Shown piece by piece: positions 45,201 through 62,760 of a DNA stretch of 64,000 nt. The translations under genes were made by a program, and so were the position numbers. The first letter of the stretch is position 1, and the number at the start of each line of letters is the position of its first letter. The DNA lies in assembly GCA_005809105.1 (NCBI GenBank), contig SYLI01000006.1:1-64000 (forward strand), read 5' to 3'. The DNA comes from Verrucomicrobiales bacterium (GTDB lineage Bacteria > Verrucomicrobiota > Verrucomicrobiia > Limisphaerales > UBA1100). The notes under the pieces were generated by a model. That model was not told the origin of the DNA, made no database searches, and saw only the letters and a program-made list of their open reading frames with translations.

Positions 45201-48200
45201 CCCCACCGTGGCGCTGGGGCCCACCAAGGTCATGGATCGTCACGGCGCCGCCTTGAGCAGCTACCAGTTCGATGGCGCGGATGACGGAATTCGCACCGTG
45301 AGTGCCAATGGCCTGCCCGTGGCCGCCAGCGATTTCACCATGTCTCTTTGGGTGAGCCCGGGTGCCTTGCAAGGCCCTGACGGCGCGGCCGATCTCGTGG
45401 TGGTCAACCGCGGCCAGGCCAACCGCGTGTACCAGAACATCGGGGGCGGGCAATTCGCGCTCAAGGCGGGGGTTCTCCCTGCGGATGTTCGCAGTGGATC
45501 CTCGGTGGTGAGTGGCGACATCAACAAGGACGGCTTCCTTGATCTTATTGTCGGCAACGGGCAGACGGGCGTGAACGATGAGACCCGGCTCTACATCAGC
45601 AACGGCGATGGGACTTTCCAAGCCGCGCAAACCTTCGGCGGAGGCAGTCAGCGCACCATGGCGCTGGCGCTGGCGGACTTGGACGGCGACAGCTACCTCG
45701 ACTTGGTTCAGGGAAACTACGGTCAGCCCAACCGGTTTTACATCAACAACCAGTCGCGCACCGGCGGGTTCAAGGCGCCCATCAATGTGGATGCCATTTC
45801 CTACAACACCCGCGCGCTGGCATTGCAAGAGGTGAACGGTTCCTTCGCGTTTCTTCCGCCCGCATTTGGAGCTCCCGTGGAGAACATGGCGGCCGTGCCC
45901 GCCACGTTGCCCCGGGCATTGGAGAGCGCGCCGCCGTATTTCGTGGGGTTGGACGCCGCCGGCCCGGATGGAGACTTTGACCCGCAACTGCTGCTGGCGC
46001 AGGCTGCCGCGGGCGTGGCGACGCCACCCATTGCGCCGGTGCGCCCGCTCACCAATGCCGTGCCCGTGGCGCCGGTGTTCCCTCCCGAACTGGCGGCCAT
46101 CCCCGCCGTTCAGCAGTATCCCTTGATGCGGATCGGTTCCCGCGCGGTGATCCCCACCATCCACGGCCGGCAGGCCTCGTATCGCAACATTCATTTTCCC
46201 GGCAACCGCCTGCAGGCCGAGGCCACCGCGCGCCGCTTTCTGGACACCATGTCCGCCACGCTGGGGGTTCGTGCCGGGGAGAAAGATTTGGGCCTGCTCA
46301 AAGTGCAGCACGGTCTGGCGGGCAGCACGGTGTTTTTAGAGCCCAAGCTCCACGGGCGGCGCATCTACAACGCCAGCATCTCCGTCCACTTGGGCGCGCA
46401 GGGGCAGGTGGAAACCCTGCACCTCACGTACTACGCGGGGGTGAAGGTCGAGGATCAGCAACCGGTGATTGACGTGCGCGTGGCCGAGACCATCGCGGAG
46501 CGCCGGCTGGGCGCCAAGTCGGTGCGCCGGCGTTTTGCCGACCGAGCCGAGCAGGTGTGGTACATCAAACCCGACGGCAGCGCGGCACTGGCATGGAAAC
46601 TCCTGGTGGCGCCCTCAAACACGCTGGCGCTGTACGAGGTGCTGGTGGATTCCCGGCTGGCGGGCGTGCTGTCGGTTCGCGACACCAACCTGCATGCGCC
46701 CACCACGGGCAGCGGGCTGGCCTTCACGCCCAATCCCATCCAGACGCAGGGGAGCACCTTTGGTTTGTTCAATGCAAACCCGGGCAACGACGGCACCTCG
46801 GCGGCGCTGAACTTGCAGCGGCAAACCGTGACGTTGCTTGACCTCAATGGTTCTGGGTTTCTGGATGGCAAGTATTTGCACATGAGCACGGTGGCGCCCA
46901 TGAACGCCACCGTGGCGCAGGTTCATGCCTTCAGCCTCACCTCCACCTTCAACTACGATCGCAGCGATGGGCGCTTCGAGGAGGTTTGCATTTATCACAC
47001 CATTGATTCGGTCCAGCGCTATTTTCAGTCGCTGGGATTCAGCGGCTCCAACATTCCCGCCAACGGGCTGCGTGATCAGGTGATGCGCGCTTGCGCGCAT
47101 TCCTTCGAGGGCGTGGGCTCCGGCCTCAACGCCTTTTATAGCCCGGCGCTGAACGAGATCCATTTTGGTCAGGGTGACATGGGGCACGCTAGCGGCGACA
47201 CGGTGGACTTGGCGGAGGATGGCGATGTCATCGCGCACGAATACGGCCACGCGGTGCTCTTTGCCGTGAACCCCGGGCTGGCGATGGGGGGATGCATGTC
47301 CGGCATAAAAGGGGTCAATGAGGTGGACGCCATCCACGAGGGGTTTGGCGACTATCTGGCCTATGCGTTCTGGAGCGAGACGGGCAACGCCGGCTATCTG
47401 AGCGTGGCCGCGCAGCGCGCCCGCGGCGGCGAGTGGGCGATGGAGCAGTACCCCACGGCGATTCGCAGTGTGAACAATACCACCTATGGCTACGCCAATT
47501 GGAATGGCGAATGCCATCATGACGGCGAGATTTGGGCGAACGCGTTGTGGGACTTGCGTGTCAGCCTCGAGACCAAGCACGGCAAGCCGCTGGGCAGCCA
47601 GATGGCTGACAAGCTCGTGTTCGAGTCGCTGCGAAACTACCCGAACATCTGCACCTTCAAGATGGCGGCCATCGAGATTTACAAGGCTGACCAGGCTCTC
47701 AATGGCGGCATCAATGCCGGGCACATCATCAAGGCATTTAATGGCCGCGGTTTCACCACGACGCCCGACTTCCCCAGCCCCCCCGATTTCCCGGATTTGG
47801 TGGCGGGGAATTATCTCGGTGGCGGCAGCGTGGGCTACAGCAATCTCATCGGAGGCTTTGGGCCGCCGATTGCGGTTACTGCGTCCATGTCCACCACCGC
47901 CTTGGCGCTGGGCGACATCAACGGCGACGGCCGCGCCGATCTCATCGTGGGCAACGACGCCACCTTCAACTACCTCTACGTTAATAACGGCACGGGCGGT
48001 TTTCCCGTTGGCCTGCGCCAGCAAATGACCAGCGACAATCTCGCCACTCGCGCCCTTGCGGTGGGGGATGTGGATGGCGATGGCGATCTGGATGTGGTGG
48101 CCGGCAACTACGGCCAGCGCAACAAGCTCTACCGAAACAACGGCACGCCCACACCGTTTTTGGGACTCACGGGCGAGGACATCCACACCGATGCCGACAA

Positions 48201-51200
48201 CACCACGGGCATCGCGCTCAACGACGTGGATGGCGACGGAGATCTGGATGTGCTGGTTTCCAACGACGGCGCCATTCCCAAGCTCTACCTCAACAGCGGC
48301 GTGGGCGTGTTCAGCGCGGGCAGCCCCATCACGGGCGCGCTGGCGGAAAATTCCCAGGCCATACTGGTGGCCGACGTTGCCGGGCCGGGCCGACGCGTGC
48401 TGCTGGCCAACCAGTCCGCCGGCCAGTTCGAGGTGCATCTGGTGGCCGCGACGGGCCGCAATGCGGGTCTGGAGTTCTTCATGGGCGACCCCTCCGCCCC
48501 CAAGGTCACCACCTCCGCCATGAACTGGTCGCTCAACCAGTGGTACAACGTGGTGGTGCGGCGATCGGGCAACACGGTGACCGTGTGGCGCGACGGAATG
48601 TTGCTGGCACAGAACGACAATGTCGTGGCAGGAAACGCGGCCTCACCGGCCAACCAGAGGGTGAGCATGGGCCGGCGCACGCCCTTCCCCAGCTACTTGA
48701 TGCAGGGCACGATGGATGACATGCGAATCTACAACCGCGCGCTGACCGATGCGGAGATTGAGGAACTCTTCGTCTCCGAATGGGCTCAGCCCATGGCGAC
48801 TCCATTTGATTCGATCACCTCGCTGCGGGCGCATTATCCCATCCGCTCCACCGATTCGCCCTTTGCCGTCACCGAAATCGTGGGCACGGGCCCCGACGGC
48901 GTGCCCAACGCCGGTGCCTTGCGCGTCAGCGGCCGTTACGGTGCGGCCGATGTGCAGGGCGCCTACGAGCTGGCTGGCACGGTGGGCGGCTACATCAACC
49001 TGGGGGCGAACACCTCGTTTGGCACCGGCGCCTTCACCGTCTCGATTTGGGTCAGCAACGCCAGCGTGCCCAACGCCGTCAGCGCCGACATCATCGGCAA
49101 CCGCGTCTTCTCCTCGGGGAACGAGTGGTGGCTGGCGTTGCAGCCCAGTGGCCGCGTGGTCTTTCGCGGCGGCGGCACCACGCTGCAGTCCAATACCGGT
49201 GCCGTGTTGATGGATTCCTCCGCATGGACGCATCTGGTGGTCTCGCGCGAGGCCAACGGCAGCGCCACGCTGTACGTGGACAAGACCCCCGTGGCCACGA
49301 CCACATCCATGTCCGCGAACCTGAACACCCTCAACGAACTCTGGATGGGCAGGGCCGGCGGCGGGGGGACCGACTACTACAAGGGGCGCGTGGATGAACT
49401 CCGGCTCTTTCAGGGCCGCGCCTTGCAGGGGTGGGAAGTGTCCGCGCTCTATGATCTGGAACGCCCCGCGTCGGTCGGCACGGCGAGCATCACGGTGAAC
49501 TTCACCCCCGACGCGGTGGATGCGGGGGACAGCGTGCGCCTGCAGCTCTACTCCAACAGCGCGGCCACCGAGGCGGCGTTTTACACCACCGATCTCAACG
49601 CGACGGGCAAGACTTTCACCTACACCTTCAACAGTGCGGCGGCGGCCAATGCGTGGCAGGACTTGCAGGGGCAGTTCCGGTTCACGCCGCAGGGGGGACG
49701 GGTGACCATTGACAACGTGGTGATCACCGTCAACGGGGCCTCCTTCACCTACAGCGGCACGGACGTTCCCGTGCGGATTTCCTCCGGGGACAAGCTGGCC
49801 AAGAACATCCAGATGAACCGCGACAGCACCTTTGCGATGGCGATGCTTTTGAATGCCGGCGGTGCCTACACGCTGGCCCACGAGCTGGGTCATCTCTTGG
49901 GATGCCACCATGGCATTGGGGACACATGGCTGCGTCCGGATAGTCCCAGCATCACCTTCAACCCCTACGGTTCCGAGACCATCGCCGGCGGGGTTACCGC
50001 GGGGGTGGGCAATTACGTGCGCGACGAATTCCTGGCGATGGGCAATCACTTCACGACCTGGGGCACCCCCACCGGCCAGCCGGGCTCCGGCACGTGGGGG
50101 AAATACTGCACCCTCATGGCGTACAGCTTTCCCGGCAACGCGTCCAGCAACCCGCTCTGGACCAGAATCCCCCGCTTCTCAAGCCCGTATGTCTATTGGA
50201 AAGGCAAGGCGACGGGGGATAGCCACGGCTTTAATCTTCCGCCTCCCTTTGGGAACTACAACAAACCGCTCTACTTCGACAACGTGAGGGTGCATCAGGT
50301 GGTTGGTCCCATTGTGGGTTTCTACCGCGACGACAATGGATCAGACCGGCTGCCTTCCGAATTCCAAACGCCCTTGCGCGGGCCGCAGGGCGTGCCCGAT
50401 ATGGACACCAACTTTGCCTCGGGCAATCCCCAGCAAGTGGCCCAGGCAGGAGGCGGCGCCGGTGGCAGCAGTGGTGCGGGTGCCCCCAAGCGCAACACGG
50501 GATTGGGCGCGGGTGTCTCCGGCGGCAATGGGGGCAATGGGGGCAATGGGGGCAATGGGGGCAATAGCGGCAGCACGCCGGGCACCACCAATCCTGCTCC
50601 CGCCACGGGGGGCAATCCCTCCGGCACACCGCCTGCCACCGGTTCAAAGGGTGGCACCACGGCCAACCCTACATCTCCACCGAATCCGGGCGGATCGAAC
50701 CCACGGCCCACGGTGACGCCCGGTGTTGTCGTGTCCGGCCCCGGTGTGCCCAACGACCGCAAGGCGGGAAGCCTGAACATTGCCTTGCGGCGCCAGGCCG
50801 ACACGAGCTGGTCGGGCATTGCCGATGGACACAACCGGGGTGCGACGGCGGACGCGGGCGACAACGCCCTGGCTCAGACCGACGACCGCCGCCCGGCGTT
50901 TCACGGCCGTTCGGTCTGGTGGCACGCCGTGGTGCCGGAGGATGGAACCTATCAGGTGCAGGGCACCACGGCGGGAAGCACCTTTGACACCACGCTCACC
51001 CTGCTGCTGCCCGAGGAGGGCGGCGCGCTCTCCAACGACAACGACCCCGGCCAGTCCGGCCCGTCCAGCCGCGTGCAGACCGGCGAGAGGGTGTTGAAGG
51101 CCGGACAACGGATTTACTTCGCCGTGGACGGCGTGGATGGGGCGCAGGGGCAGGTGCGGCTTAACGTGCGCCTCTCGCCGCTCAAGCGTGGCGGCAACTG

Positions 51201-51201
51201 A
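42295..51201 (+). CDS. Giant (2968 aa) membrane-anchored or secreted multidomain protein: split metzincin + LamG + FG-GAP + nested fungalysin-like gluzincin + PPC-like C-terminus
   Basis: N-terminal TM; EYIDILFIYD...VTLMLDVVNSIYAACAISLEVRQ; LamG and FG-GAP motifs; VIAHEYGHAVLF...AIHEGFGDYLA...GEIWANALWDLR; TLAHELGHLLGCHHG...YCTLMAY; (GGN)n linker; C-terminal SVWWHAVVPEDGTYQVQGTTAGSTFDTTLTLLLP. Start codon uncertain (SD-like GGAAGGAG is too close to 42295). Confidence 0.9.
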   Translation: MALRFSVQYGTLSDVVPVKRKQLYLTLLAAALVIGGAVGLYLQKKQRRLPLLFTDLAAAQAPASFPEQGIAKRWRWVTLDNVGLGQLSILPQKPKRVRLNLFPDLEVSAVITANKTHWNTDQSALGIINDDPDSLFVMSRHKDIMMGMVVLPDARQVLISHVKDGKYVIVEVDPRKGGGCGTCVDDAAPAAAGDHPSHGTKPSAAAPSGDAAAFARRMAKADGAVGHSLARECVHPPLPPVSPVMQQGDGSVQPLPPESPLPRPRTASVQVRPMLAAINLKNLQPLLAQGAYTLQGQGGSARQTMGPTTPHSLTYQRPGYTEYIDILFIYDLRTLAQEGNFTQLQGKVTLMLDVVNSIYAACAISLEVRQAGALTPAIRRAMAGSPADLTSSGYSATGPAWQEVQAPVRPNRTNTDPTQWTVWTPVGTQKQAKPGVYQPLFEDSNSTVDLNEALTWLTTRSNSLLYGDQHWGEAMFRSSTGVNTQEPYVNLPAGTLWRLEPRAVPAAPIYTDTVHPNLRTGPVDHVDSPWAIQSDPGTPPITHDTYVYRYDVDGINDTYGTQFNPLYSGMIGLRMDVNGSNYNNVAFTGNPNGGATARYTTLHGQTGNFDPTYQINTTPYRMDARADIVCMLSPDAFALGGAGAVGLAQKYSNLKPVANPAGAVGRGPYPQPNLVHEQQYSRHDGDISLAAGTPYLGTFSTLRPTQLANTAASGLVGYWPFLGNANDLSGLNNHGVLVGNAALGNDRFGNASAAVSLDGSGDHVSIPVTASLNIASKFTVCAWVRPTQFTHLTSPHIFAAVQGATRRITLTGDGTAANNGTVVFYPQSDSANQVSTPQPNIAGVAQPALALNQWHFIAAVYDGSQSKIFRNGMLVAVDTSVAGGSIGTISNLYIGDSTAGTPAQNQWQGQIDDVRLYNRAMGDDEVAGIYISERRPQTMPSAANLVLHMPFNGGSLADLSGQGNDANATPTVALGPTKVMDRHGAALSSYQFDGADDGIRTVSANGLPVAASDFTMSLWVSPGALQGPDGAADLVVVNRGQANRVYQNIGGGQFALKAGVLPADVRSGSSVVSGDINKDGFLDLIVGNGQTGVNDETRLYISNGDGTFQAAQTFGGGSQRTMALALADLDGDSYLDLVQGNYGQPNRFYINNQSRTGGFKAPINVDAISYNTRALALQEVNGSFAFLPPAFGAPVENMAAVPATLPRALESAPPYFVGLDAAGPDGDFDPQLLLAQAAAGVATPPIAPVRPLTNAVPVAPVFPPELAAIPAVQQYPLMRIGSRAVIPTIHGRQASYRNIHFPGNRLQAEATARRFLDTMSATLGVRAGEKDLGLLKVQHGLAGSTVFLEPKLHGRRIYNASISVHLGAQGQVETLHLTYYAGVKVEDQQPVIDVRVAETIAERRLGAKSVRRRFADRAEQVWYIKPDGSAALAWKLLVAPSNTLALYEVLVDSRLAGVLSVRDTNLHAPTTGSGLAFTPNPIQTQGSTFGLFNANPGNDGTSAALNLQRQTVTLLDLNGSGFLDGKYLHMSTVAPMNATVAQVHAFSLTSTFNYDRSDGRFEEVCIYHTIDSVQRYFQSLGFSGSNIPANGLRDQVMRACAHSFEGVGSGLNAFYSPALNEIHFGQGDMGHASGDTVDLAEDGDVIAHEYGHAVLFAVNPGLAMGGCMSGIKGVNEVDAIHEGFGDYLAYAFWSETGNAGYLSVAAQRARGGEWAMEQYPTAIRSVNNTTYGYANWNGECHHDGEIWANALWDLRVSLETKHGKPLGSQMADKLVFESLRNYPNICTFKMAAIEIYKADQALNGGINAGHIIKAFNGRGFTTTPDFPSPPDFPDLVAGNYLGGGSVGYSNLIGGFGPPIAVTASMSTTALALGDINGDGRADLIVGNDATFNYLYVNNGTGGFPVGLRQQMTSDNLATRALAVGDVDGDGDLDVVAGNYGQRNKLYRNNGTPTPFLGLTGEDIHTDADNTTGIALNDVDGDGDLDVLVSNDGAIPKLYLNSGVGVFSAGSPITGALAENSQAILVADVAGPGRRVLLANQSAGQFEVHLVAATGRNAGLEFFMGDPSAPKVTTSAMNWSLNQWYNVVVRRSGNTVTVWRDGMLLAQNDNVVAGNAASPANQRVSMGRRTPFPSYLMQGTMDDMRIYNRALTDAEIEELFVSEWAQPMATPFDSITSLRAHYPIRSTDSPFAVTEIVGTGPDGVPNAGALRVSGRYGAADVQGAYELAGTVGGYINLGANTSFGTGAFTVSIWVSNASVPNAVSADIIGNRVFSSGNEWWLALQPSGRVVFRGGGTTLQSNTGAVLMDSSAWTHLVVSREANGSATLYVDKTPVATTTSMSANLNTLNELWMGRAGGGGTDYYKGRVDELRLFQGRALQGWEVSALYDLERPASVGTASITVNFTPDAVDAGDSVRLQLYSNSAATEAAFYTTDLNATGKTFTYTFNSAAAANAWQDLQGQFRFTPQGGRVTIDNVVITVNGASFTYSGTDVPVRISSGDKLAKNIQMNRDSTFAMAMLLNAGGAYTLAHELGHLLGCHHGIGDTWLRPDSPSITFNPYGSETIAGGVTAGVGNYVRDEFLAMGNHFTTWGTPTGQPGSGTWGKYCTLMAYSFPGNASSNPLWTRIPRFSSPYVYWKGKATGDSHGFNLPPPFGNYNKPLYFDNVRVHQVVGPIVGFYRDDNGSDRLPSEFQTPLRGPQGVPDMDTNFASGNPQQVAQAGGGAGGSSGAGAPKRNTGLGAGVSGGNGGNGGNGGNGGNSGSTPGTTNPAPATGGNPSGTPPATGSKGGTTANPTSPPNPGGSNPRPTVTPGVVVSGPGVPNDRKAGSLNIALRRQADTSWSGIADGHNRGATADAGDNALAQTDDRRPAFHGRSVWWHAVVPEDGTYQVQGTTAGSTFDTTLTLLLPEEGGALSNDNDPGQSGPSSRVQTGERVLKAGQRIYFAVDGVDGAQGQVRLNVRLSPLKRGGN
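50521..50567. repeat. 9-bp tandem repeat (ggcaatggg)n coding a GGN linker
   Basis: ggcggcaatgggggcaatgggggcaatgggggcaatgggggcaat. Confidence 0.9.
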
Positions 51202-51216
51202 CCTCGAGACCTCGAC

Positions 51217-54200
51217 ATGAATCGCAGGGCCAAATGGATTCGCGCGGGCTGGGTGACGCTCGTCATCGCCTGCGGGATTGCCGGCCTTTGGTGGCGGCAG
51301 GCCAGTCGGTTTGCGCCGCCGCTCTTCGTGGACTTGCCCGCGCATCTCAAGCCCGAGTCCTTCCCCCAAAGCGTCATCGCCAAGCGGCACCGGTGGGTTT
51401 ATCTGGACACGGCGGCGCTCCAGCGCCTCACCAAGATCGGGGGGCGCCTCAAGCTCAATCTTTTCCCCGACATGGAGGAGGTGGCGGTGGTGGGCGCGCA
51501 CCGTTCGCACCCGCACGGCGACCAGTCGGTTCTGGGCCACCTTGAGAGCGGGCCTTACGAATCGCTCTTCGTGTTCTCGCGCAGTGAACAGGTGATGATG
51601 GGATCGGTGGGCATGGCCGATGGCAGGCAGGTGCTCTTAAGCCACGTCCGTGGCGGCGCCTATGTGATTCTGGAGGTGGACACGCGCAAGGTGGGGGGCT
51701 GTGGCACCTGCGAGCCTGAGCGCACCGCGAGCAAAGAAGCCGCGCCGCCACGCCCGTCATCCAAGGCGTCGGCACCGCCGTCCGGGTCGGCCGAGGGTTC
51801 GGCCTTTGCGCGGCAGCTTTCGCGGCGGTCGGGTGCAGGGCCTTGGAGTGGGATTTGCGAGGCGTGCAATGGCGAGCGGACGGCGCGGCCGGTGGCCGGC
51901 ACCCCGGACATCGCCCCGCTGCATTCTCATACGGCCCTTCCTGAGCCCACGGCGCGGCGGCAGGTTCTGCCCAAGCCAACGCTGGCGCAGCGCCAACTGC
52001 CCCTGCTGGCGGCGATGGGGTTGCCCACACACGTGCTGGCCGCCACCGGCCCTTACGGCATTCATAATGCGGGGACAGGCAAGAAGGGGGGCGCCGGTTC
52101 CAGCCCGGTCTCTGCCAGCAGCCGCTACCTTATGTCGGTCGGCACCAGCGAGTTTCTCGATGTGTTGTTCCTTTACACCGACGCGCTGAACACTCAGTTG
52201 GGGGGAGGGGCGACAGGGCTGCTCAATCTACAGGCCTCGGTCACGCTGATGGTTGATCAGGCCAATCAAATCTTTCTGGAAAGCGGTGTGCCCTTCCAAA
52301 TCCGGCAGGCCAGTCTGTGGAAGGCGACTCACCGGGCGATGACGGCGATGGACGGCGGGATTAGCGTCACGGCTCCCAATCTTCTGGGCGCGGGCTATCC
52401 CACCGATGCGCCGGCATGGACGGAGACGCAGGCACCCGTGCGCCCCGACTATTCCAACGGCGACAACAAGCTCTGGACGGTCTGGAATCCGTGGAAAGGC
52501 ACGGTGGGCGTGACGACGTGGAATCAAAAACAGGCGATGGAAGGCGTGTACCAGCCCACGATGGTGAACGTCAAGAAAACGGAGGTGGCGGACTACCTCA
52601 AGTGGATCACCAACCGCAGCAACAGCCTGCTCTACGGCGACCAGTACTGGAAATCAGGAAAACTCTTCACCGGCGCCGTGATTGAATACGTTGAGGCCAA
52701 CAACACCAAGCAGTATTTCCAGCAGCACCGCACCGCCAGCAACCTCGCCACCCGCGCCATCGTGCCCTTGCCCACCAACGGCGCGCCGATGAAGTTTGTT
52801 GGCAATTCCGACTATGCCACCCTCAGCACCATCGTGCAGCACGATCCAGGCTCGGGCGTGGCCGGGTTCATCACGGCCAACACCAGGTTGTATTTTAGAA
52901 ATGGCAATGCGACGGGCCGGTTTTCGTTGCACTCCAAGTCGGCGCACGCCTCCAACGGCAGTTTTCCGGTGCAAATCGGCGCGGACGATCCGCCCTTGGA
53001 TCCGCTCCCGGTGGGGTACTCGCTGGAGCTGGTTGAGCAGGACAACTACAGGGTTAATCCCTTCATCAATCTTCCCGCGGGCTTCACATGGCGGCTGGAA
53101 CCTGATAAGGCGGGAAAATCGCGCATGTACAAGGAGAGTGTCAATCGCGCCGTGGCGGTGGGGCCGGTGGACGATCCGCTCTCCAGCACCGCGATCAAGG
53201 CCTTTGGCCCTGGCGATGCCACGCCGCCCACGAGCATCAAGGACGATAATGCCACCAACCACACGCCGGTGCAGCGCTACGAGCTGGACACCAGCGACCT
53301 CGTCCCCGGCATCGCCAACGGGACCTATTATGGCAATGTGTACAACCCGCTCTATTCGGGTGTGCTGGGGCTGCGGATGGACCTCAACGGGTCCGACTAC
53401 GCCTCGATTGATTTCAATGGAACGCCGCTGGCCTCCGCGCTGCTGCCGGTGCGCTATCCCAACCTGCACCGGTTTCAGGAGACGCCCTTTGTGCCCACCG
53501 CCTTGGCCGCCGACCCCCGGGCCGATCTGGTCATCCTGCTCACCGAAAACCTGGCGGGCAGCGCAGGCATCGCCACCAAGTACATGAACATCACCCCGGC
53601 CGATCCGGCCCGAACCATCGGGCGGGGGATGTCGCCCGAGCCCAACAAGGTTCAGGAAAAGACCGCCGACTATCACGAGGGCGACCTGTTGGGCGGCAGC
53701 AGCCGCATGTTGGAGCGATCCTTCACGTCGCTGCCGGTGACCGGCACCATCAACACTTCCACGACCTCGCTGGGGAGCAGCGGGTTGGTGGCGTACTATC
53801 CCTTTGACGGCAATCTGACCGACTCCAGCGGCAATGCCCACCACGGCGTGCTCTCCTTGGGAACGGCCGCCTACACCACCGACCGCCTTGGCGTGGCGGC
53901 AAAGGCGCTCAGTCTGGATGGCACCCAGCGCGTGGAGGTGACGGCGGGCGCGTCCGTTTTCAATTTCAACAGCACCACCAGCTGGGCGGTGAGCGCGTGG
54001 ATCAAGCCCAACGATATCGCGGCCGAAGGCGGCATCTTGAGCCAGGCCGATTCGGCGACGGGCGTGGTGAACTACCAGATGGGCCTGCGCAATTCCAGGT
54101 TGAGCAGCGAGAGTCCGCCGCTCAGTCCGGTCACGGGCGGCAACTCGGGCGCGGTGCTGGGTGGCACGGGCGAATGGAAGCACCTCATGTATGTGTATGA

Positions 54201-57200
54201 CCGCACCGCGCGCGGCGGCACCGGCGGGTCCTCCTCGTGGACGGGCTTCGGGAAAGTCCAGCGTTACATCAACGGCATGCTCTTTGATGAGATTGGCATG
54301 AATGCGCCCTCGGGCGTGGGCGCAGGCGACCGGCTGTTGCTGGGCGACAACGCGGCGGGGACGGCGCCCTTTGCCGGTGCGCTGGATGAGGTGCGCGTGT
54401 ACAGCCGCTCCTTCACGGGCACGGAGGTTCGCCAGCTTTACGGCAGCGAGAAGAACGCCACCGCGTTTGATGCCCTCACGGGCCTCGCCTTCCACTACCC
54501 CTTTAATGGCGCCTCCACCGCCGACTTGAGCGGCAACACCAACACGGGCGTGGTTTACAACGGTGCGTCGCACCCGCGGCCCGACCGCTACGGCAACGCC
54601 AATGGTACGCTCTCACTCGATGGCGTGAATGATTACATGCGCTCCACCAAGACCACCAACTTCCCGCGCGGGCCCGGCGCCTTCACCTATTCGGTGTGGC
54701 TCAAGCCCGGCAGCCTGCTTTCCCCGGACAGCCGGCTGGACTTGCTGACGGGCCACGGCGCGGGGGTGCCCTCGCAGGTGTTTGTCAACGAAGGCAACGG
54801 CTCGTTGCGCCCCTTCGTGGGCGATCACCAGGTGTCGGGCACCTCGGGCAACGCCACCACCAGCGTGGCGGTGGGCGATCTCAACAACGACGGCTACAAC
54901 GATTTCGTGCTGGGCAACTGGCGCCAGCCCAGCGTGGCCTTCCTCAACAACGGCAACGGCGACTTTGGCGCGGGCATCATGGTCTCCGCCGACGCCAATG
55001 ACACCCGCGACATCAAGCTGGGCGACATCAACCGCGACGGCAACCTCGACCTCGTGGTGGCGCGCGACAACGGCCAGTTCAACCTCATCTACATGGGCCG
55101 CGGTGATGGCACCTTCCAGCCGGCCGTTGAAATCGAGCCTTCCTCGCAGCTGCTCTTCGACGACAAGATTGGGCTGGTGGTCCACTACCACTTTAGCAAT
55201 GGCACGCTGCTGGACGCCAGCACGTCGGCCAACCACGCCAACGCCACCGGATTGCCCGCGCTGGCACCGGGCGTGGGGCCCTTGCCGGTTCCCAACAGCG
55301 CCTACCGGTTTAATCCCGTCACGGGCGCGGGCGCGATGCAGCGGCAATACATCACGAGCAAAACGGCCAATGGGTTTCCGTCAGGCACGGGCAATTTCAC
55401 CGTTCTGGGCTGGGTGAATCCCAAGTCCTTTTTCGGCATGGACGGGCTGCCCGATGTCATCACCGGCGTGGGCGGCGGCCCCTTGCGCATCCACCCGGGC
55501 TACGGCAACGGCTCGTTCGCCTCGCCCCGCACTTTTGGCGGCGTGAGCGACACGACGGCGCTTTTGGTGCGCGATGTGGACGGCGACGGCGATCCGGACG
55601 TGGTGCAGGGTGCCTACAACCAGCTTAACCGCGTGCATCTGCTGCACGGCAACGGCACCTTTTTGGCCAGGGACATTGGCACGGCGCCGGGCGAAGCCAA
55701 TCGCACCCTGTCGCTGGCGATGGCCGATTTGAATTTGTTGCCGGCGGTTGGCCTGCCCGATCTGGTGGTGGGCAACGCCCATCCCGACCGTGACGTGGTG
55801 TACAAGAACATGGGCAACGGCTCGTTTGTGAAGGTCGAGGAAATCATCGGGATGCAGCCCATGAACCCCATCCCGACAGGCGCCATCTGCCATTTCAAGA
55901 TGGACGGCTCGCTGGCGGCCGACGTCGTGCGCGACTTTGCCGTCAATGAGTGCAACGGAACCGTGACGGGCTGGGGTGTGAGCGTCAATGCCACCACCAG
56001 CCGGCACGGGCGTCTCAATAACGCCGTGGTGGTGGACGGCTACAACGGCGGTCGCATCTCCTGGCCGGCCAGCAACGCCACCACGTGGTTTGGCGACATC
56101 CCTGCGCTGAGCATGTCGCTGTGGGTGAAACCCATGGGAACCCAAGCCACCGCGCGAACCGTGCTCAGCTGGACCTCGGTGGCGTACGCCACGGTGGATG
56201 GCTTTGCGTTGCTGTTGCCGGAGAACGCGTATGGCGGCCGGTTTCAATATTTCTCGAGGTCGGTCAACTGCTTAGGCGGCGCGTGGCCCGCCGGCTGGGC
56301 CAACACCGGCTGGCAGCACATCGTGGTCATCCGCAAGCTGGTCACGGCGTTTAACAACGAGTCGCTCGAGATTTATCTCAACGGTAGCCTCAATAATGTG
56401 CAGGTCTCCACCGGGCCGCCGGGGGTCAACGTAAATCCTTCAGGGGCGTTCGCGCTGGGCGCGTGGGCCAGCGGCGGCGGGCAGCCCTCCCACTTTGGCG
56501 TGGACGACATGCGCGGCTACCGGCGCGTGCTGAGCGCGACGGAGATTCTGGAGTTGTACAACGAAAGCGCGCCGGTCTTTCAGGAGTCCAAGGGCCACAG
56601 CCGGTCTGTGGCGCTGGCTGATCTCAACAACGACGGCAAGATGGAGCTCATCGTGGGCTCGGATGGAAACGGCACGATGGTGTACCAGAAGAACCTGGAT
56701 GGCGCCATCACCGATCCCCAATTGTTGGCCCGGCGCTTTGGCGTGGTGCGCTATCTGAGCAGCGGCGCGGCCTTTAATCGCACGAGCTCCGTGTGGGTGG
56801 GCAACGCCACCGGAGGAACCATGCCCGACATCATCGAGGGCAACGACAACGCCTCCACCATGCTCTACCGCACGCTGGGGTATCCTTTCATCAACTTCAC
56901 ACCTCCCTACAACGACTGGCGATATCAAAAACCGGTGATGAGCGGCGCCACGCCCATCCCGCCGCCGGGCGAGACTTGGGTTGCACGGGATTCCAACCGC
57001 AATTGGTCGGCCGTGGCGTCGTCATCCAATGGCTCAAAGTTGGTCGCCACGGTGATGGGCGGCCAGATCTACACGTCCACTGACCTGGGCGCCACGTGGG
57101 GAGTGGGCGGGAGTGCCGTCGGCAACTGGAGCGCGGTCGCTTCTTCTGCTGACGGGGTGAAACTGGTCGCAGCCCGATCCGGCGCAGGCGTCGGCCAGAT

Positions 57201-60200
57201 TTACACCTCACCGGATGCAGGCGCCACGTGGGCTTTGCAGGGTTTAAGCCCGACGCGCGATTGGACGGCGCTGGCCTCGTCCGCGGACGGCACCAAGCTT
57301 GTGGGGGTGGGCAATGCTTCCGAGCTTTTCACCTCCACCGATTCGGGAGCGAACTGGACCCCGCGGAGTTCCGCGCGGGTGTGGGCCGACGTGGCAGGCA
57401 CTCCCGACGGGGTTCGTCTGGTGGCCTGCGAGGCGGGAGCGGCAGGGCGAATCTACGTGTCCATCGATTCGGGGGTGACTTGGGCGCTGGGCGGCAATGC
57501 CACCTATCCGGTGGGCAACTGGGCGGGAGTGGCCTGTTCTGACGACGGCTTCCGGATGGTGGCGGTGATGAATGGCGGCCAGGTCTACACCTCGGTTGAT
57601 GTGGGCACCACATGGACGCCGCAGGTGGCCAGCCCCACCGCGGCATGGAAGGCCATCGGCGCCAACCTGACGGCGCAGTGGCTGGTGGGGGTGACGACCG
57701 GGGGCAACATTTACACCTCTACCGACTCGGGCGCGACTTGGAGGGCGAGTGACAGCGCCCGCGCATGGACCTGCGTTGCCTCGTCGAGCAATGGCATGGA
57801 CCTGGTGGCGGGCGTGAATGGCGGCCAGATCTACACCTCCAACGCGCTGGTGTCGGGCACCCGCGCCATCCGGCTCATGCAAGTGATGGGCCCCATCGCC
57901 ACGCAGCACGATGTGGTGAGCGGCAGGCATGGCAATGCCAGCCAGATCTACGCGGGGAATGGCACGGGCTTCTTCGCATCGGGGCTGGTGTACAGCGGGC
58001 TGGATGACAACACCACGGCGATCGAGATCGCCGACATGAACCGCGATGGCATCGCCGACATCCTGGCCGCCAACGAGGATGGCCCGGACAAGGTGTATCT
58101 GGGCGATGGAGCTGGCAACTTTCAGACAATGCTGCTGCCCGGTTCGGCCGGCAACTCGACGTGCATCGGCGCGGGGGACTTCACCGGGCCGGGGCGCCAG
58201 ACCATTTTTGCCAACCGCAGGCTGGGGGCGTTTGAACTGCACCTCAATGCGGGCGATTCCACCCGGCCCACCGAGGCGGCGATGGAGTTTTACACGGCCG
58301 GCGACGACGTCACGCCCCTGCTCACCAGCGCCAACATGACGTGGGATCCCAACCAATGGTACTTCGTGGCCGTCCGGCGCGAGGGCGATGTCCTGACACT
58401 CTTCCGCGACGGCGTGGCCATGGCGAACGCCACCGATGCATCGGGCCTGGGCAACACGGCCACGCTGGCCGAACGAATCCTCGATCTGGGCTACCGGCCT
58501 GCTTTGCAGGGCGGCCACTTCCCCTTGAACGGCAATGTGGACGATTTTCGCATCTACACGAAGCCCCTGTCCGACTCGGAGATTGCCCAGCTCTACAACA
58601 TGAACGCGCCCACGCTGGCGGCGTCAACGGAGTTGGTGGGGCATTATTCCTTCGACTACGTGGCCACCGACAATCCCGTGGGCACGGTGCTGCGCGATGA
58701 AAGCGGGCGCAACAACAACGGCACGCTGGGAGGCGCCACGGCGCCGCTGCCCACCTTCGACAAACTGGGGAGAGCGGCCTCGGCGCTGCTCTTTGACGGA
58801 GTGGATGACGTGGTGACCATCGCACCGGCCACCGCCGCCAACTTTGGCGACTTTAACATCAACGCCACACAGAACCTCACGGTGGCGTTGTGGGCGCTGC
58901 CCAACACGCTTTCCAAGCCCAACAACCCCATCCTCACGCTGCGGGATGGCTCCGGCAACGCCTACTATCAGATGGAGTTTAACAGCAGCATCTTTGCCAC
59001 GGCGATGCCGCCCGTGGGCCCGGCTGGCAATGGCACCTTTGCGGTGAACCCCGGCTGGCGCTTCTTGGTCTTGGTGCTTGATCGCACCGCTTCGGAAATC
59101 CGCCGCTACGTGGACACGCGGCTCTGCGATGTCATCCCGATCAGCCTGCCGGCGGGGACGCTGACGGGCACGCAGCTGGTGCTGGGGGCCAACGACGCCA
59201 GCGACGCGTTCTTTGAGGGCGTGCTCGATGATCTGCGCATCTACAACCGGGCGCTCTCACCGGGCGAGGTGGCGCAGCTTTACCAGAAGATGCCCTCGGA
59301 CATTCCCACCGACTCGCGGGGCGTGGCCATGGCGGATCTCAACAACGACGGCGATCTGGATCTGTTCTTTGCCAACTACAACCAAGAGAGCATCTGGTTT
59401 GAGAACAACGGCACGGGAGGATTCCCGTTGGCGCGGCGGATTTACACCGGCGACATTTTCCGGTCCACCTCCATCGCCGTGGGCTCCATCAACGGCGACG
59501 CGACTCCGGATCTGGTGCTGGGCAACGAAGGCCAGCCCTCGGTGTGGTACCGCTCCTTTGGTTCCGGCGACGCGTTCAATCCGAAGGTCAATGTCTCCAC
59601 CGACGCCAACCAAACCCAGGCCGTTCTGCTGGTGAACGTGGTGGGAACCGCGGCGCTGGACCTGGTCTCCATCAACCGCAACGAACCGAGCAAGATTTAC
59701 CAGAACCTTGGGGGGGCATGGTCGTTGCCGTCCTTCTTGGATCCCGCGCAGGCTTCGTATGATTCAACCTCGGTGGCCGCCGGCGATGTGGATGGCGACG
59801 GGCTTGTGGATCTGGTGGTGGGCAACAACGGTGTGGCCAATCGGGTTTACAAGAACAACTTAGGCACCTTTGCCAACGGCATCGCCATCACCAGCGCCAC
59901 CACCGGCAACTGCACTGCCGTGGCGCTGGCCGACTTCGCCGGCGACCGGCGCGTGCTGCTTTCCAACCAGAAGGACGCGGGCGGCCGCGCCGACGCCTTC
60001 TCCATCCATCTGCTGCCGCTGGACAAGAACAACACGGCGCACGTGCAGTACTACGCAGGCGGGCTGCTCATGACCGAGTCCACCACCGACTGGAACTTTG
60101 ATCCCGCAAGCTGGCATCATCTCGTGGTGACCCGGCGCGATCCGTTTGATGCGACCAACCCCAACGGCGTGCGCATGTACTTGAACGGTTCATCCATCGG

Positions 60201-62760
60201 CACCGGGACGGCGGCCATGGGCAACTCCGCCATCGGCGCGGCCGAGGTGATTGACACGGGTTATCGCAAGTGCACCGACCAGTTCCCGATGAAGGGAGAA
60301 CTGGACGACCTGCGCCTCTACAACCGCGCGCTCAATGATGCGGAGGTCGTGGAACTCAACTTGGCCGACCAACCCCCGCCGCCCAACGTCAACCCGTACC
60401 AGGGGCTCGTGGCGTGGTACCGGCTCGCGGCCAATGGGCTGGACTCGGCCGGGGTGTACAACCTGCACGGCACCATGAGCGGCCCGGTGCCCACCGTGGG
60501 TGTGGTCAACGATAGCAGCGGCGCACTGGAGTTTAACGGCAGCCGGCGCGACGTGGTGAATGTGGGCCACCATGCCGCGCTCAATGGCAATGCGTCGGCC
60601 GGCTTGAGTTTCACGGCCTGGGTGAAGACGTCGTCGGCCGGCACGCTCTCGGGCACGCTGGCGGCGAAGGACGGCACGATTGGCAGCTGCGGCTGGCGCG
60701 TGGAGGTGAATGCCACCACAGGCCGCGTGCAATTTCTGACCAGTCCCAACGGGACGACAGTCAACACGCTGGTCGGCGTGCAGCCGGTGAACGACGGCGC
60801 CTGGCACCATGTTGTGGTGACGATCGGTCCCGGCGGCCGGCGGATTTATGTGGATGGCTTTCTGGATGGCAGCTCGGGCGCAGGCACGGCGCTCTTTGCC
60901 ACCACGGCTGAATTCATGCTGGGCATGGACAGCATGACGCTGCCCACGGTGAACGGGCCGCTCACCGGGCGGCTGGATGAGGCGCGCGTGTATGACACCG
61001 AGATTTCGGCGGCGAGGGTGGCTGCCATCCACGCGGCGGAGAAGCCGGGAATCGAAGGCTATGCGACCATCAGGGTGCACTTTGTGGGCGACAGGCTGAC
61101 GGCCGGCGACAGTGTGCGCCTGGAGCTCTTCAATGATGTGGACACGAAGCAGGCGCCCTTCTTCAGCCAGATCTTTACCACGGGGGGCGATTCCATCACC
61201 CACACCTTCATGTCCAATGCCACGGGCAATGCGTGGCAGAACCTGCGCGGTGCGTGGCGCCTGAAGGGGATCGCCGGCTCGATAACGGCGGACTCAGTGG
61301 ATATCGAGGTGCGCAGCGGCCAGTTTGTGTTTGGCCTGACCCAGACCATGAACCAGGTGCCCGGTCAATCGCTCTACAATTTCAACGCGCAGATCAACCG
61401 CGATGTGTACTCCGCCGGCGTGGTGCAGCTCTCGCAAGCCACGGCGCAGTACAGCTTCTGCCACGAGATCGGGCATCTCTTGAGCGCCAGTCATGGCATG
61501 GGCGACGACGTGGCCGTCGGCATCCTCGACGCCAGCCACACCTTCAGCCCCTTTGGTTCGCACTTTAATTACGTGCGTGATGAGTACCTCTCCATGGGAA
61601 ACCACTTCACCGCCTTTGGAGGCACGTCGGGGGCCGCCGGAACCTTTGGCAAGTTCTGCACCATCATGGCCTACACGCGCAATGGCGTGTACAAGCGCAT
61701 TCCCTACTATTCCAGCCCGAGCGTCGTTTATTTGGGCGTGCAGACGGGCCACAGCCGCGATCACTACCTGCCTCCCCCCTTCGGCAATTTCAATCAGGCG
61801 CTCTACATGGACAACGTCCGGGCCATGGGGGTCGTCGGCAAGGTGGTGGTGCAGTATCGCGATGTGAACGGCACGGGCCGTCCGGTGGATCCCAGCACCG
61901 TTCCCGCCCCGTTCACGCCGCCACAGGGCGTGCCCTTGATCACCACGATGGCGACGGCCCCGGTGGGCGGCAATGCCACGCAGGTGGCCGTGCTAAACCC
62001 CGCGAACCCGACTACGCCGGCCGATGGACTAAAACCGCCTGCCACCACGCCCGGCACAAGCGGCGGCTCTCCGGCCAGCGGCACAAATCCCATCACCACA
62101 CCCAAGGCGTCGAGCCCAGGCTCACCGACCGGCCGCCAGCCCTCGACAGGCTTGGGTGGGGCCACCGGCTCCACCGGAACGAAACCCCCGGCGGGAGGGA
62201 CGATTGGCGGCACCACGCCGACGCCGCAACCGACACCCACCAACACCACGCCGCGTCCAACCGTGCCGGTCATCCCCACCACCCCTCGTGTGGCCACTGT
62301 GCCCAACGACCAGTTTGAAAACAGCATTCTCCTGCAGCCCAAACCGCTGGCCGATGCCAGCCTCTTGGCGTCGGACAACGGCCACAACATGGGGGCCACC
62401 GGAGGGGCCAATGAATCGGCGGGCCTGCGCTCGGACGACGGCCGTCAGGTGTTTTACGGCAAGTCGGTGTGGTGGGTGATGCAGGCGGCGCGCGAGGGCG
62501 AATACGAACTTGAGGCCTCCACACAGGGCAGCAACATTGACACGACGCTGAGCGTATTTCTGCCGGGCATGGGCGCTCCCCTGTCCAATGACAACGGCGC
62601 GGGCGTGGCGCCCGCCAGCCGCGTGGTGGTGCCGCGGGTGCGGCTCAAAGCGGGCGACCGCGTGTACTTCGCCGTGGACGGGGTGGACGGCGCCGAGGGC
62701 AGGCTGCGAATCTCGGTGCGCCTAAAGCCCGTCAACGCCGCGGGCGCTTCCAAGCCCTAG
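51217..62760 (+). CDS. Giant (3847 aa) paralogue of the preceding protein: split metzincin + LamG + FG-GAP + Asp-box/BNR propeller + PPC-like C-terminus
   Basis: FLDVLFLYTDALN...VTLMVDQANQIFLESGVPFQIRQ; DPRADLVILLTENLAGSAGIATKYM; ... YSFCHEIGHLLSASHGMG...KFCTIMAY; same N-terminal region and C-terminal domain as the 42295 gene. Confidence 0.9.
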   Translation: MNRRAKWIRAGWVTLVIACGIAGLWWRQASRFAPPLFVDLPAHLKPESFPQSVIAKRHRWVYLDTAALQRLTKIGGRLKLNLFPDMEEVAVVGAHRSHPHGDQSVLGHLESGPYESLFVFSRSEQVMMGSVGMADGRQVLLSHVRGGAYVILEVDTRKVGGCGTCEPERTASKEAAPPRPSSKASAPPSGSAEGSAFARQLSRRSGAGPWSGICEACNGERTARPVAGTPDIAPLHSHTALPEPTARRQVLPKPTLAQRQLPLLAAMGLPTHVLAATGPYGIHNAGTGKKGGAGSSPVSASSRYLMSVGTSEFLDVLFLYTDALNTQLGGGATGLLNLQASVTLMVDQANQIFLESGVPFQIRQASLWKATHRAMTAMDGGISVTAPNLLGAGYPTDAPAWTETQAPVRPDYSNGDNKLWTVWNPWKGTVGVTTWNQKQAMEGVYQPTMVNVKKTEVADYLKWITNRSNSLLYGDQYWKSGKLFTGAVIEYVEANNTKQYFQQHRTASNLATRAIVPLPTNGAPMKFVGNSDYATLSTIVQHDPGSGVAGFITANTRLYFRNGNATGRFSLHSKSAHASNGSFPVQIGADDPPLDPLPVGYSLELVEQDNYRVNPFINLPAGFTWRLEPDKAGKSRMYKESVNRAVAVGPVDDPLSSTAIKAFGPGDATPPTSIKDDNATNHTPVQRYELDTSDLVPGIANGTYYGNVYNPLYSGVLGLRMDLNGSDYASIDFNGTPLASALLPVRYPNLHRFQETPFVPTALAADPRADLVILLTENLAGSAGIATKYMNITPADPARTIGRGMSPEPNKVQEKTADYHEGDLLGGSSRMLERSFTSLPVTGTINTSTTSLGSSGLVAYYPFDGNLTDSSGNAHHGVLSLGTAAYTTDRLGVAAKALSLDGTQRVEVTAGASVFNFNSTTSWAVSAWIKPNDIAAEGGILSQADSATGVVNYQMGLRNSRLSSESPPLSPVTGGNSGAVLGGTGEWKHLMYVYDRTARGGTGGSSSWTGFGKVQRYINGMLFDEIGMNAPSGVGAGDRLLLGDNAAGTAPFAGALDEVRVYSRSFTGTEVRQLYGSEKNATAFDALTGLAFHYPFNGASTADLSGNTNTGVVYNGASHPRPDRYGNANGTLSLDGVNDYMRSTKTTNFPRGPGAFTYSVWLKPGSLLSPDSRLDLLTGHGAGVPSQVFVNEGNGSLRPFVGDHQVSGTSGNATTSVAVGDLNNDGYNDFVLGNWRQPSVAFLNNGNGDFGAGIMVSADANDTRDIKLGDINRDGNLDLVVARDNGQFNLIYMGRGDGTFQPAVEIEPSSQLLFDDKIGLVVHYHFSNGTLLDASTSANHANATGLPALAPGVGPLPVPNSAYRFNPVTGAGAMQRQYITSKTANGFPSGTGNFTVLGWVNPKSFFGMDGLPDVITGVGGGPLRIHPGYGNGSFASPRTFGGVSDTTALLVRDVDGDGDPDVVQGAYNQLNRVHLLHGNGTFLARDIGTAPGEANRTLSLAMADLNLLPAVGLPDLVVGNAHPDRDVVYKNMGNGSFVKVEEIIGMQPMNPIPTGAICHFKMDGSLAADVVRDFAVNECNGTVTGWGVSVNATTSRHGRLNNAVVVDGYNGGRISWPASNATTWFGDIPALSMSLWVKPMGTQATARTVLSWTSVAYATVDGFALLLPENAYGGRFQYFSRSVNCLGGAWPAGWANTGWQHIVVIRKLVTAFNNESLEIYLNGSLNNVQVSTGPPGVNVNPSGAFALGAWASGGGQPSHFGVDDMRGYRRVLSATEILELYNESAPVFQESKGHSRSVALADLNNDGKMELIVGSDGNGTMVYQKNLDGAITDPQLLARRFGVVRYLSSGAAFNRTSSVWVGNATGGTMPDIIEGNDNASTMLYRTLGYPFINFTPPYNDWRYQKPVMSGATPIPPPGETWVARDSNRNWSAVASSSNGSKLVATVMGGQIYTSTDLGATWGVGGSAVGNWSAVASSADGVKLVAARSGAGVGQIYTSPDAGATWALQGLSPTRDWTALASSADGTKLVGVGNASELFTSTDSGANWTPRSSARVWADVAGTPDGVRLVACEAGAAGRIYVSIDSGVTWALGGNATYPVGNWAGVACSDDGFRMVAVMNGGQVYTSVDVGTTWTPQVASPTAAWKAIGANLTAQWLVGVTTGGNIYTSTDSGATWRASDSARAWTCVASSSNGMDLVAGVNGGQIYTSNALVSGTRAIRLMQVMGPIATQHDVVSGRHGNASQIYAGNGTGFFASGLVYSGLDDNTTAIEIADMNRDGIADILAANEDGPDKVYLGDGAGNFQTMLLPGSAGNSTCIGAGDFTGPGRQTIFANRRLGAFELHLNAGDSTRPTEAAMEFYTAGDDVTPLLTSANMTWDPNQWYFVAVRREGDVLTLFRDGVAMANATDASGLGNTATLAERILDLGYRPALQGGHFPLNGNVDDFRIYTKPLSDSEIAQLYNMNAPTLAASTELVGHYSFDYVATDNPVGTVLRDESGRNNNGTLGGATAPLPTFDKLGRAASALLFDGVDDVVTIAPATAANFGDFNINATQNLTVALWALPNTLSKPNNPILTLRDGSGNAYYQMEFNSSIFATAMPPVGPAGNGTFAVNPGWRFLVLVLDRTASEIRRYVDTRLCDVIPISLPAGTLTGTQLVLGANDASDAFFEGVLDDLRIYNRALSPGEVAQLYQKMPSDIPTDSRGVAMADLNNDGDLDLFFANYNQESIWFENNGTGGFPLARRIYTGDIFRSTSIAVGSINGDATPDLVLGNEGQPSVWYRSFGSGDAFNPKVNVSTDANQTQAVLLVNVVGTAALDLVSINRNEPSKIYQNLGGAWSLPSFLDPAQASYDSTSVAAGDVDGDGLVDLVVGNNGVANRVYKNNLGTFANGIAITSATTGNCTAVALADFAGDRRVLLSNQKDAGGRADAFSIHLLPLDKNNTAHVQYYAGGLLMTESTTDWNFDPASWHHLVVTRRDPFDATNPNGVRMYLNGSSIGTGTAAMGNSAIGAAEVIDTGYRKCTDQFPMKGELDDLRLYNRALNDAEVVELNLADQPPPPNVNPYQGLVAWYRLAANGLDSAGVYNLHGTMSGPVPTVGVVNDSSGALEFNGSRRDVVNVGHHAALNGNASAGLSFTAWVKTSSAGTLSGTLAAKDGTIGSCGWRVEVNATTGRVQFLTSPNGTTVNTLVGVQPVNDGAWHHVVVTIGPGGRRIYVDGFLDGSSGAGTALFATTAEFMLGMDSMTLPTVNGPLTGRLDEARVYDTEISAARVAAIHAAEKPGIEGYATIRVHFVGDRLTAGDSVRLELFNDVDTKQAPFFSQIFTTGGDSITHTFMSNATGNAWQNLRGAWRLKGIAGSITADSVDIEVRSGQFVFGLTQTMNQVPGQSLYNFNAQINRDVYSAGVVQLSQATAQYSFCHEIGHLLSASHGMGDDVAVGILDASHTFSPFGSHFNYVRDEYLSMGNHFTAFGGTSGAAGTFGKFCTIMAYTRNGVYKRIPYYSSPSVVYLGVQTGHSRDHYLPPPFGNFNQALYMDNVRAMGVVGKVVVQYRDVNGTGRPVDPSTVPAPFTPPQGVPLITTMATAPVGGNATQVAVLNPANPTTPADGLKPPATTPGTSGGSPASGTNPITTPKASSPGSPTGRQPSTGLGGATGSTGTKPPAGGTIGGTTPTPQPTPTNTTPRPTVPVIPTTPRVATVPNDQFENSILLQPKPLADASLLASDNGHNMGATGGANESAGLRSDDGRQVFYGKSVWWVMQAAREGEYELEASTQGSNIDTTLSVFLPGMGAPLSNDNGAGVAPASRVVVPRVRLKAGDRVYFAVDGVDGAEGRLRISVRLKPVNAAGASKP

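Follow-up and report, generated by a model that had tools for sequence, protein, structure and literature searches.

We have found that two adjacent giant genes of a Verrucomicrobiales bacterium probably encode tandem paralogous M72-like metzincin zymogens, envelope-anchored or secreted, whose catalytic domain is recursively filled with other domains. The genes lie in the window, the 64,000-nucleotide (nt) stretch of DNA that was analysed (assembly GCA_005809105.1, contig SYLI01000006.1, positions 1 to 64,000 of the forward strand); the host is an uncultured aquatic bacterium and its genome is metagenome-assembled. The open reading frame of gene 2 starts 15 bp behind gene 1, and its position, length and motifs are as given in a preliminary description of this DNA.

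42295..51201, + strand, gene 1: 2968-amino-acid (aa) paralogue, an interrupted metzincin with LamG1, a split LamG (7-bladed FG-GAP propeller and M36 gluzincin within) and LamG3
51217..62760, + strand, gene 2: 3847-aa giant protease with nested insertions

For gene 2 we propose a parse of six levels, in which the metzincin holds LamG2, LamG2 holds propeller 1, propeller 1 holds LamG3, LamG3 holds propeller 2, and propeller 2 holds LamG4 and an Asp-box propeller. The metzincin loop before the zinc-site strand and helix would hold LamG1, LamG2 and LamG6; a 7-bladed FG-GAP propeller would break LamG2 after its 'FT.S.W..P' strand; a second, paralogous LamG(propeller) unit (LamG3) and LamG5 would break this outer propeller between blades 2 and 3; and LamG4 and the Asp-box propeller would break the second propeller. 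If all domains close, metzincin, LamG and propeller parts up to 2600 residues apart would reunite, and the modules would form a branched tree near the active-site cleft, not beads on a string.

The metzincin split, which the preliminary description had ascribed to both genes, is borne out by pairwise BLASTP: the first halves of the two proteins match at E=1e-78 (34% identity, 720 columns) and the second halves at E=8e-130 (35% identity, 1151 columns). The earlier reading of a duplicated scaffold with swapped inserts holds as far as the tandem duplication, the split metzincin and the differing inserts are concerned, but the inserts are not simply swapped. Common to both genes are LamG1, a split LamG with a 7-bladed FG-GAP propeller inside it, and a last LamG; the difference lies in the propeller contents: an M36 gluzincin in gene 1 versus a LamG-propeller unit with a LamG and an Asp-box propeller in gene 2. 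The parts of the gene 2 protease itself are as follows.

51217..51711, + strand, N-terminal hydrophobic anchor or signal and propeptide ending in a conserved EVDxxK..CGxC (sequence)
52144..52332, + strand, metzincin part 1 (strand 1, helix A, strand 2; alignment and fold of an unsplit relative)
52333..53487, + strand, insert at metzincin site A (no Pfam match)
53488..53589, + strand, metzincin part 2 (ADLVILLTENLAGSAGIATKYM; alignment)
61384..61851, + strand, metzincin part 3 (strand 5, active-site helix, Met-turn, C-subdomain; alignment)
61462..61494, + strand, zinc motif HEIGHLLSASH (aa 3416, sole HExxH of gene 2)
61654..61674, + strand, Met-turn FCTIMAY (sequence)
62284..62757, + strand, C-terminal beta-rich tail (resembles PPC, unconfirmed)

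In gene 2, 2600 residues separate the ADLV strand from the HELGH helix; in the metzincin of genus g5 the strand runs directly into the helix, and the insert sits at another loop (site A). Compact relatives made of propeptide and metzincin without an insert occur in Lysobacter, Stenotrophomonas, Bacteroidetes and one Verrucomicrobial metagenome-assembled genome (locus L050). Because g5 is continuous at this point and the short metzincins elsewhere lack the insert, the cut is an insertion. The fold was tested on the unsplit L050 protein alone. The predicted L050 structure is a metzincin (predicted local distance difference test score, pLDDT, 84; predicted template modelling score, pTM, 0.84), with CpaA as its first structural match (Z 26.4, 212 residues, root-mean-square deviation 2.6), then adamalysins/ADAMs (Z ~18). 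This model places site A between strand 2 and the helix preceding strand 3; site B, the site of the window genes, is the loop between strands 4 and 5, directly ahead of the active-site helix.

The metzincin comes nearest to CpaA and Mep72, two proteases of family M72, whose members are marked by a peptidyl-Asp or a Pro-S/T* glycoprotease specificity. On account of this match we rejected a new protease family, and with it the earlier suggestion of an undescribed one: the protease core is not new. L050 scores 72.9 bits against NCBIfam Mep72 (model 1-236, cut-off 645) and 24.8 bits against CpaA (cut-off 750), and the second half of gene 2 reaches a weak 16.7 bits against Mep72; since these scores are below the curated cut-offs, we call the metzincin M72-like and do not file it under either name. 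Pfam Reprolysin_5 (M12) matches gene 2 with 20.5 bits and gene 1 with 19.1 bits, both under the gathering score of 27. The tail had been called PPC-like; it reached no Pfam PPC model, and at E<1e-3 it had no match to the PPC-like tails that a relative carries, so that the name stays a mere resemblance.

Gene 1 has two HExxH motifs, HEYGH of the gluzincin at 47236 and HELGHLLGCHH of the metzincin at 49879; in gene 2 the motif occurs just once and, as described before, there is no gluzincin. The gene 1 metzincin motif fits HExxHxxGxxH, and gene 2 keeps all His and Glu residues with Ser, not Gly, at position 8, as had also been noticed. The change from Gly to Ser, together with the huge inserts, might be thought to have inactivated a relict protease core in what is now a non-catalytic surface adhesin. 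This is quite unlikely: the three His, the Glu and the Met-turn are retained by gene 2 in three genomes, and Ser-8, carried by all gene 2 proteins of the window and of genomes G001 and G003, is present in the compact Lysobacter and Catenovulum relatives as well. It was for this reason rejected as an anomaly and need not indicate an inactive enzyme. Within the CTIMAY of the Met-turn, T, M and A are invariant in 12 of 12 homologues.

Between the metzincin halves the preliminary description had placed ~7.7 kb of other modules, with an Asp-box propeller. The propeller is there (Asp-box/BNR repeats at aa 1915-2211) but makes up a small part; the bulk is made up by six LamG domains, of which four are intact and two split, and by two FG-GAP propellers of seven blades each. 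The LamG domains of both genes are listed first.

53779..54444, + strand, gene 2 LamG1, intact (aa 855-1076; LamG model, Pfam)
54472..54732, + strand, gene 2 LamG2 first half, opens (aa 1086-1172; LamG model 1-86)
55165..55443, + strand, gene 2 LamG3 first half, opens (aa 1317-1409; LamG model 2-84, E=1.6e-5)
55873..56574, + strand, gene 2 LamG4, intact, within the inner propeller (LamG model, Pfam)
58228..58611, + strand, gene 2 LamG3 second half, closes (aa 2338-2465; LamG model 130-215; Pfam 54-151/151)
58624..59292, + strand, gene 2 LamG5, intact, within the outer propeller (LamG model, Pfam)
59995..60366, + strand, gene 2 LamG2 second half, closes (aa 2927-3050; LamG model 112-213; Pfam 50-150/151)
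60397..61032, + strand, gene 2 LamG6, intact (LamG model, Pfam)
45121..45384, + strand, gene 1 split LamG, first half (aa 943-1030; LamG model from position 3; Pfam Laminin_G_3 1-32)
48415..48786, + strand, gene 1 split LamG, second half (aa 2041-2164; LamG model 98-215; Pfam 42-150/151)

The LamG model was built from the intact copies, which span its positions 1-215 (in gene 2, matches at aa 855-1076, 1554-1782, 2471-2690 and 3062-3272). The other gene 2 matches are halves, at aa 1088-1169 (model 1-86), 1319-1405 (2-84), 2371-2461 (130-215) and 2939-3047 (112-213), in the order open-open-close-close. Pfam, an independent source, gives complementary halves for LamG2 (1-34, then 50-150) and gene 1 (1-32, then 42-150), as well as the second half of LamG3; the region of the LamG3 first half matches the LamG2-FG unit at E=1.2e-11. 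When rejoined, the split LamGs of gene 2 have 211 and 221 aa, compared with 212-234 aa for the intact ones.

The propellers are interrupted in the same manner.

54727..55152, + strand, outer FG-GAP propeller, half blade and blades 1-2 (aa 1171-1312; blade model)
55444..55854, + strand, inner FG-GAP propeller, half blade and blades 1-2 (blade model)
56575..56892, + strand, inner FG-GAP propeller, blades 3-4 (blade model)
56959..57849, + strand, Asp-box (BNR) propeller within the inner FG-GAP propeller (Asp-box/BNR repeats)
57850..58227, + strand, inner FG-GAP propeller, blades 5-6 and closing half blade (blade model)
59293..59994, + strand, outer FG-GAP propeller, blades 3-6 and closing half blade (blade model; G003 gene 2 resumes at the identical point)
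46102..47769, + strand, gene 1 M36 gluzincin with propeptide, inside an FG-GAP blade (Pfam Peptidase_M36 62.9 bits; split blade aa 1168-1185 / 1834-1863)

Blades of the outer propeller begin at aa 1206 and 1255 and, after the interruption, at 2699, 2750, 2799 and 2849; the propeller is opened by a half blade at 1171 and closed by the complementary half at 2893. Those of the inner propeller are at aa 1445 and 1493, then, behind LamG4, at 1787 and 1850 and, behind the Asp-box propeller, at 2214 and 2264, where the closing half at 2310 complements 1410. The gene 1 propeller has blades at aa 1069 and 1120, a blade split into 1168 and 1834, and blades at 1866, 1914 and 1964; its closing half at 2016 complements 1029. 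The M36 gluzincin (62.9 bits against a Pfam threshold of 23.3, plus HEYGH) enters the split blade at the calcium loop. All three window propellers thus have 7 blades each, solely when the blades are counted across the interruptions, and without the inserts they are 376 aa (outer), 368 aa (inner; 369 with alternative boundaries) and 374 aa (gene 1) long; that of G003 has 364 aa. As a separate observation, genome G021, from another family of the order, has Asp-box-rich frames of 3747 and 4764 aa (G021:C103 and G021:C56) with ~40-60% identity to gene 2 repeats.

For LamG, FG-GAP and metzincin alike, complementary host halves flank an insert. Uninterrupted homologues of the host were found for the metzincin (g5 at this site, and the compact relatives) and for LamG (other copies within the protein are intact), but none for this FG-GAP propeller; a scan of viral contigs intended to deepen the alignment gave no FG-GAP relatives.

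It is conceivable that recombination within a repetitive giant protein left the half-LamGs and partial propellers behind as degenerate remnants, and that the chain is a linear series of intact LamGs separated by decayed spacers. The copies are only 22-51% identical to each other, the first half of LamG3 is weak and the structure prediction described below was unsuccessful. We nevertheless regard such decay as unlikely: the halves are complementary and break near an identical model position, their order is open-open-close-close, the blade counts are 7/7/7 with nearly equal rejoined lengths, and in gene 1 both halves are retained between genera (51% and 42% identity).

Several points weigh against recursive nesting inside the protease. 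AlphaFold2 gave a pLDDT of 37 for aa 1313-2470 of gene 2 (the inner nest, with rows of half-domain paralogues), a value at which closure of the split domains is neither supported nor excluded. Because the structure prediction of the nested core failed, the folding of the gene 2 product as nested domains is something we infer from its sequence, in which the split and its orthology, the complementary halves, the blade counts and the lengths are documented. The first half of LamG3 lacks a Pfam match. Copies from these very proteins served to train the LamG and blade models, and several blades (e.g. aa 2799-2848 and the closing half blades) were placed by eye beyond the hidden Markov model matches. 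The two deepest levels are seen solely in the window's gene 2, i.e. in one metagenome-assembled genome, as the orthologous contigs are cut (L017 and L018). Finally, substrate and location are deduced rather than observed.

Homologues with the identical split exist in genome G003, which belongs to a different genus. Its gene 1 has the same nest, namely a split LamG, seven blades and an M36 in the equivalent blade, and a second gene starts right behind. A separate G003 contig carries the end of gene 2, in which the outer propeller resumes with the equivalent four blades and closing half; behind it come the second half of the LamG and the last LamG. The deep content of this gene 2 differs, as the LamG preceding the resumed propeller appears to be interrupted by other material. 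The gene 2 proteins of the window, G001 and G003 group together in a clade supported at 100/98, and differences between the window and G001 at the three codon positions (0.25/0.23/0.47) fit a gene under constraint.

These comparisons also bear on an assembly chimera, to which repetitive LamG and blade DNA might give rise in a metagenome-assembled genome, and the orthologous genes in G001 and G003 do break at contig ends. However, gene 2 is a single open frame of 3847 codons with uniform GC content at third codon positions (GC3) across its modules, the longest exact match between the two LamG-propeller units is just 14 bp, and the identical split and blade interruption occur in the independent genome G003; we consider a chimera very improbable. 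The pair is flanked upstream by a der/EngA GTPase gene and downstream by a GFO/IDH/MocA oxidoreductase gene, both on the minus strand.

The LamG-to-propeller junction is conserved in four copies. As the propeller entry site is identical in all four, the LamG2 and LamG3 units are suggested to be copies of one LamG(propeller) module, one within the other. We lean slightly towards a wider reading, in which a self-similar module, a LamG with an FG-GAP propeller in a loop, has been inserted into its own copy to give a six-level nest inside a protease, the giant extracellular proteins of this lineage grow inward by recursive insertion and not end-to-end, and the M36 partner protease takes different nesting positions in sister genera. 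A search of 196 genomes of the order for the junction gave three clear copies, all in the window, and four weak partial matches elsewhere; its absence elsewhere is weak evidence, because the known G003 copy went unlisted among the matches of that search.

The metzincin family is narrow. In a sample of 293 genomes of the order, 11 have strong relatives of this metzincin, and among 287 genomes sampled from the rest of the phylum (E<=1e-8) there was none except in the window's own genome. In g5 (L023:7616-14476 in G005, and other g5 loci) site A of the metzincin holds an M36 gluzincin, which a propeller matching teneurin-NHL interrupts in turn; the M36 partner thus occupies metzincin site A in g5 and the FG-GAP propeller in the window and G003. 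In other families of the order (L073 in G083, L027 in G056) the metzincin has ~700 aa at site A with repeated HGYVAGQxIFV-type motifs and no recognised domain (Pfam was not run). In G007 and G005, frames of 2505 and 2510 aa (L029:731-8245 and L030:905-8434) lie next to fragments of another, divergent metzincin.

The hydrophobic N-terminus, the zymogen-like propeptide, the intact zinc site with its Met-turn and the LamG and propeller modules argue for a protease that is extracellular or tethered to the envelope and has numerous binding surfaces close to its cleft. The product would be proteolytically active, with latency conferred by the propeptide through the conserved CGxC. The propeptide Cys after EVDxxK..(G)C is kept across the order-level family (CGTC in both window genes, 51325-51711 and homologues) and is a candidate for cysteine-switch latency. 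A zymogen-type propeptide with a conserved Cys, and the second protease carried by gene 1, would also suit proteolytic nicking of the precursor, the active protease then being a non-covalent complex of halves and the nesting a genetic arrangement of a multi-chain machine. No conserved cleavage site turned up, though none was looked for. Nested halves would need pairing anyway, which makes this idea largely compatible with nested folding; as an account of its own we judge it improbable.

For the recursively filled protease, the most likely guess as to its role is cutting glycoproteins, either those of particulate organic matter or those on the surface of the cell itself: the LamG and propeller exosites would bind glycan-rich particulate or surface material, the metzincin would cut its glycoproteins, and gene 1 would add a second (M36) protease.

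Gene 2 has 70 N-x-S/T sequons compared with ~35 expected from shuffles (z ~6), whereas offsets 1, 3 and 4 are not enriched. Sequons are also enriched in two g5 homologues (z 3.8 and 4.1) and in a 1658-aa AsmA/DUF748-like protein ~14 kb downstream of the window (L112:14430-19403, G000:C63; z ~4), while nearby genes are not enriched in sum. Among the proteins encoded by the window's genome is a 1624-aa oligosaccharyltransferase of the STT3/PglB type that has a WWDYG motif (G000:C36, L118:7087-11958). The gene 2 giant may possibly be N-glycosylated.

In the gelatinases MMP-2 and MMP-9, substrate-binding fibronectin type II modules are inserted ahead of the active-site helix; this insert of ~175 residues has one level and is in tandem rather than nested. 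CpaA of Acinetobacter (MEROPS M72, PDB 6o38), the closest solved fold to L050, cleaves O-glycoproteins at Pro-S/T, and its catalytic domain works with glycan-binding-like modules (PMC7542363); there, four Ig-like repeats precede an uninterrupted catalytic domain, whereas in the window genes the modules lie within the catalytic domain and within one another. Mep72 of Pseudomonas aeruginosa (M72.001), whose NCBIfam model matches L050 and, weakly, gene 2, likewise combines a protease with carbohydrate-binding modules, but these are two, C-terminal to an intact ~180-aa catalytic domain (PMC4222646). In PAPP-A and the pappalysins the metzincin domain has LNR1-2 inserted and the chain includes a laminin-G-like domain; the insertions are small and of one level, and the LamG precedes the catalytic domain (PMC9579167).

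A 2026 survey of 2.7 million classified domains found mostly single-level insertion, with an insert smaller than its host in 77% of events and, as a complex example, six levels in cyanobacterial RNA polymerase (PMC13114784). This is SI3 of RpoC2, a recursive A1-B1-C-B2-A2 arrangement with as many levels as we propose for gene 2 (PMC13114784). SI3 comprises ~640-690 residues of an intracellular polymerase, and the proposed gene 2 nest ~2600 residues of lectin-type domains and propellers in an extracellular-type protease, where inserts often exceed their hosts (~370-aa propellers in ~215-aa LamGs), unlike most of those surveyed (PMC13114784). With the proposed parse, gene 2 would equal the deepest nesting that we found reported. 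A literature search for giants with FG-GAP and laminin G in Verrucomicrobia found nothing.

Domain insertion is common and seldom deep, and here a secreted-type protease would reach the depth of the RNA polymerase example. Linear domain annotation hides such nested architectures, in which half-domains appear as weak or missing matches. The tandem pair, along with relatives that carry other inserts at other loops, is a natural series for the growth of giant proteins; it lets one ask how a protease may fold with its halves thousands of residues apart, and whether insertion positions binding modules beside the active site.
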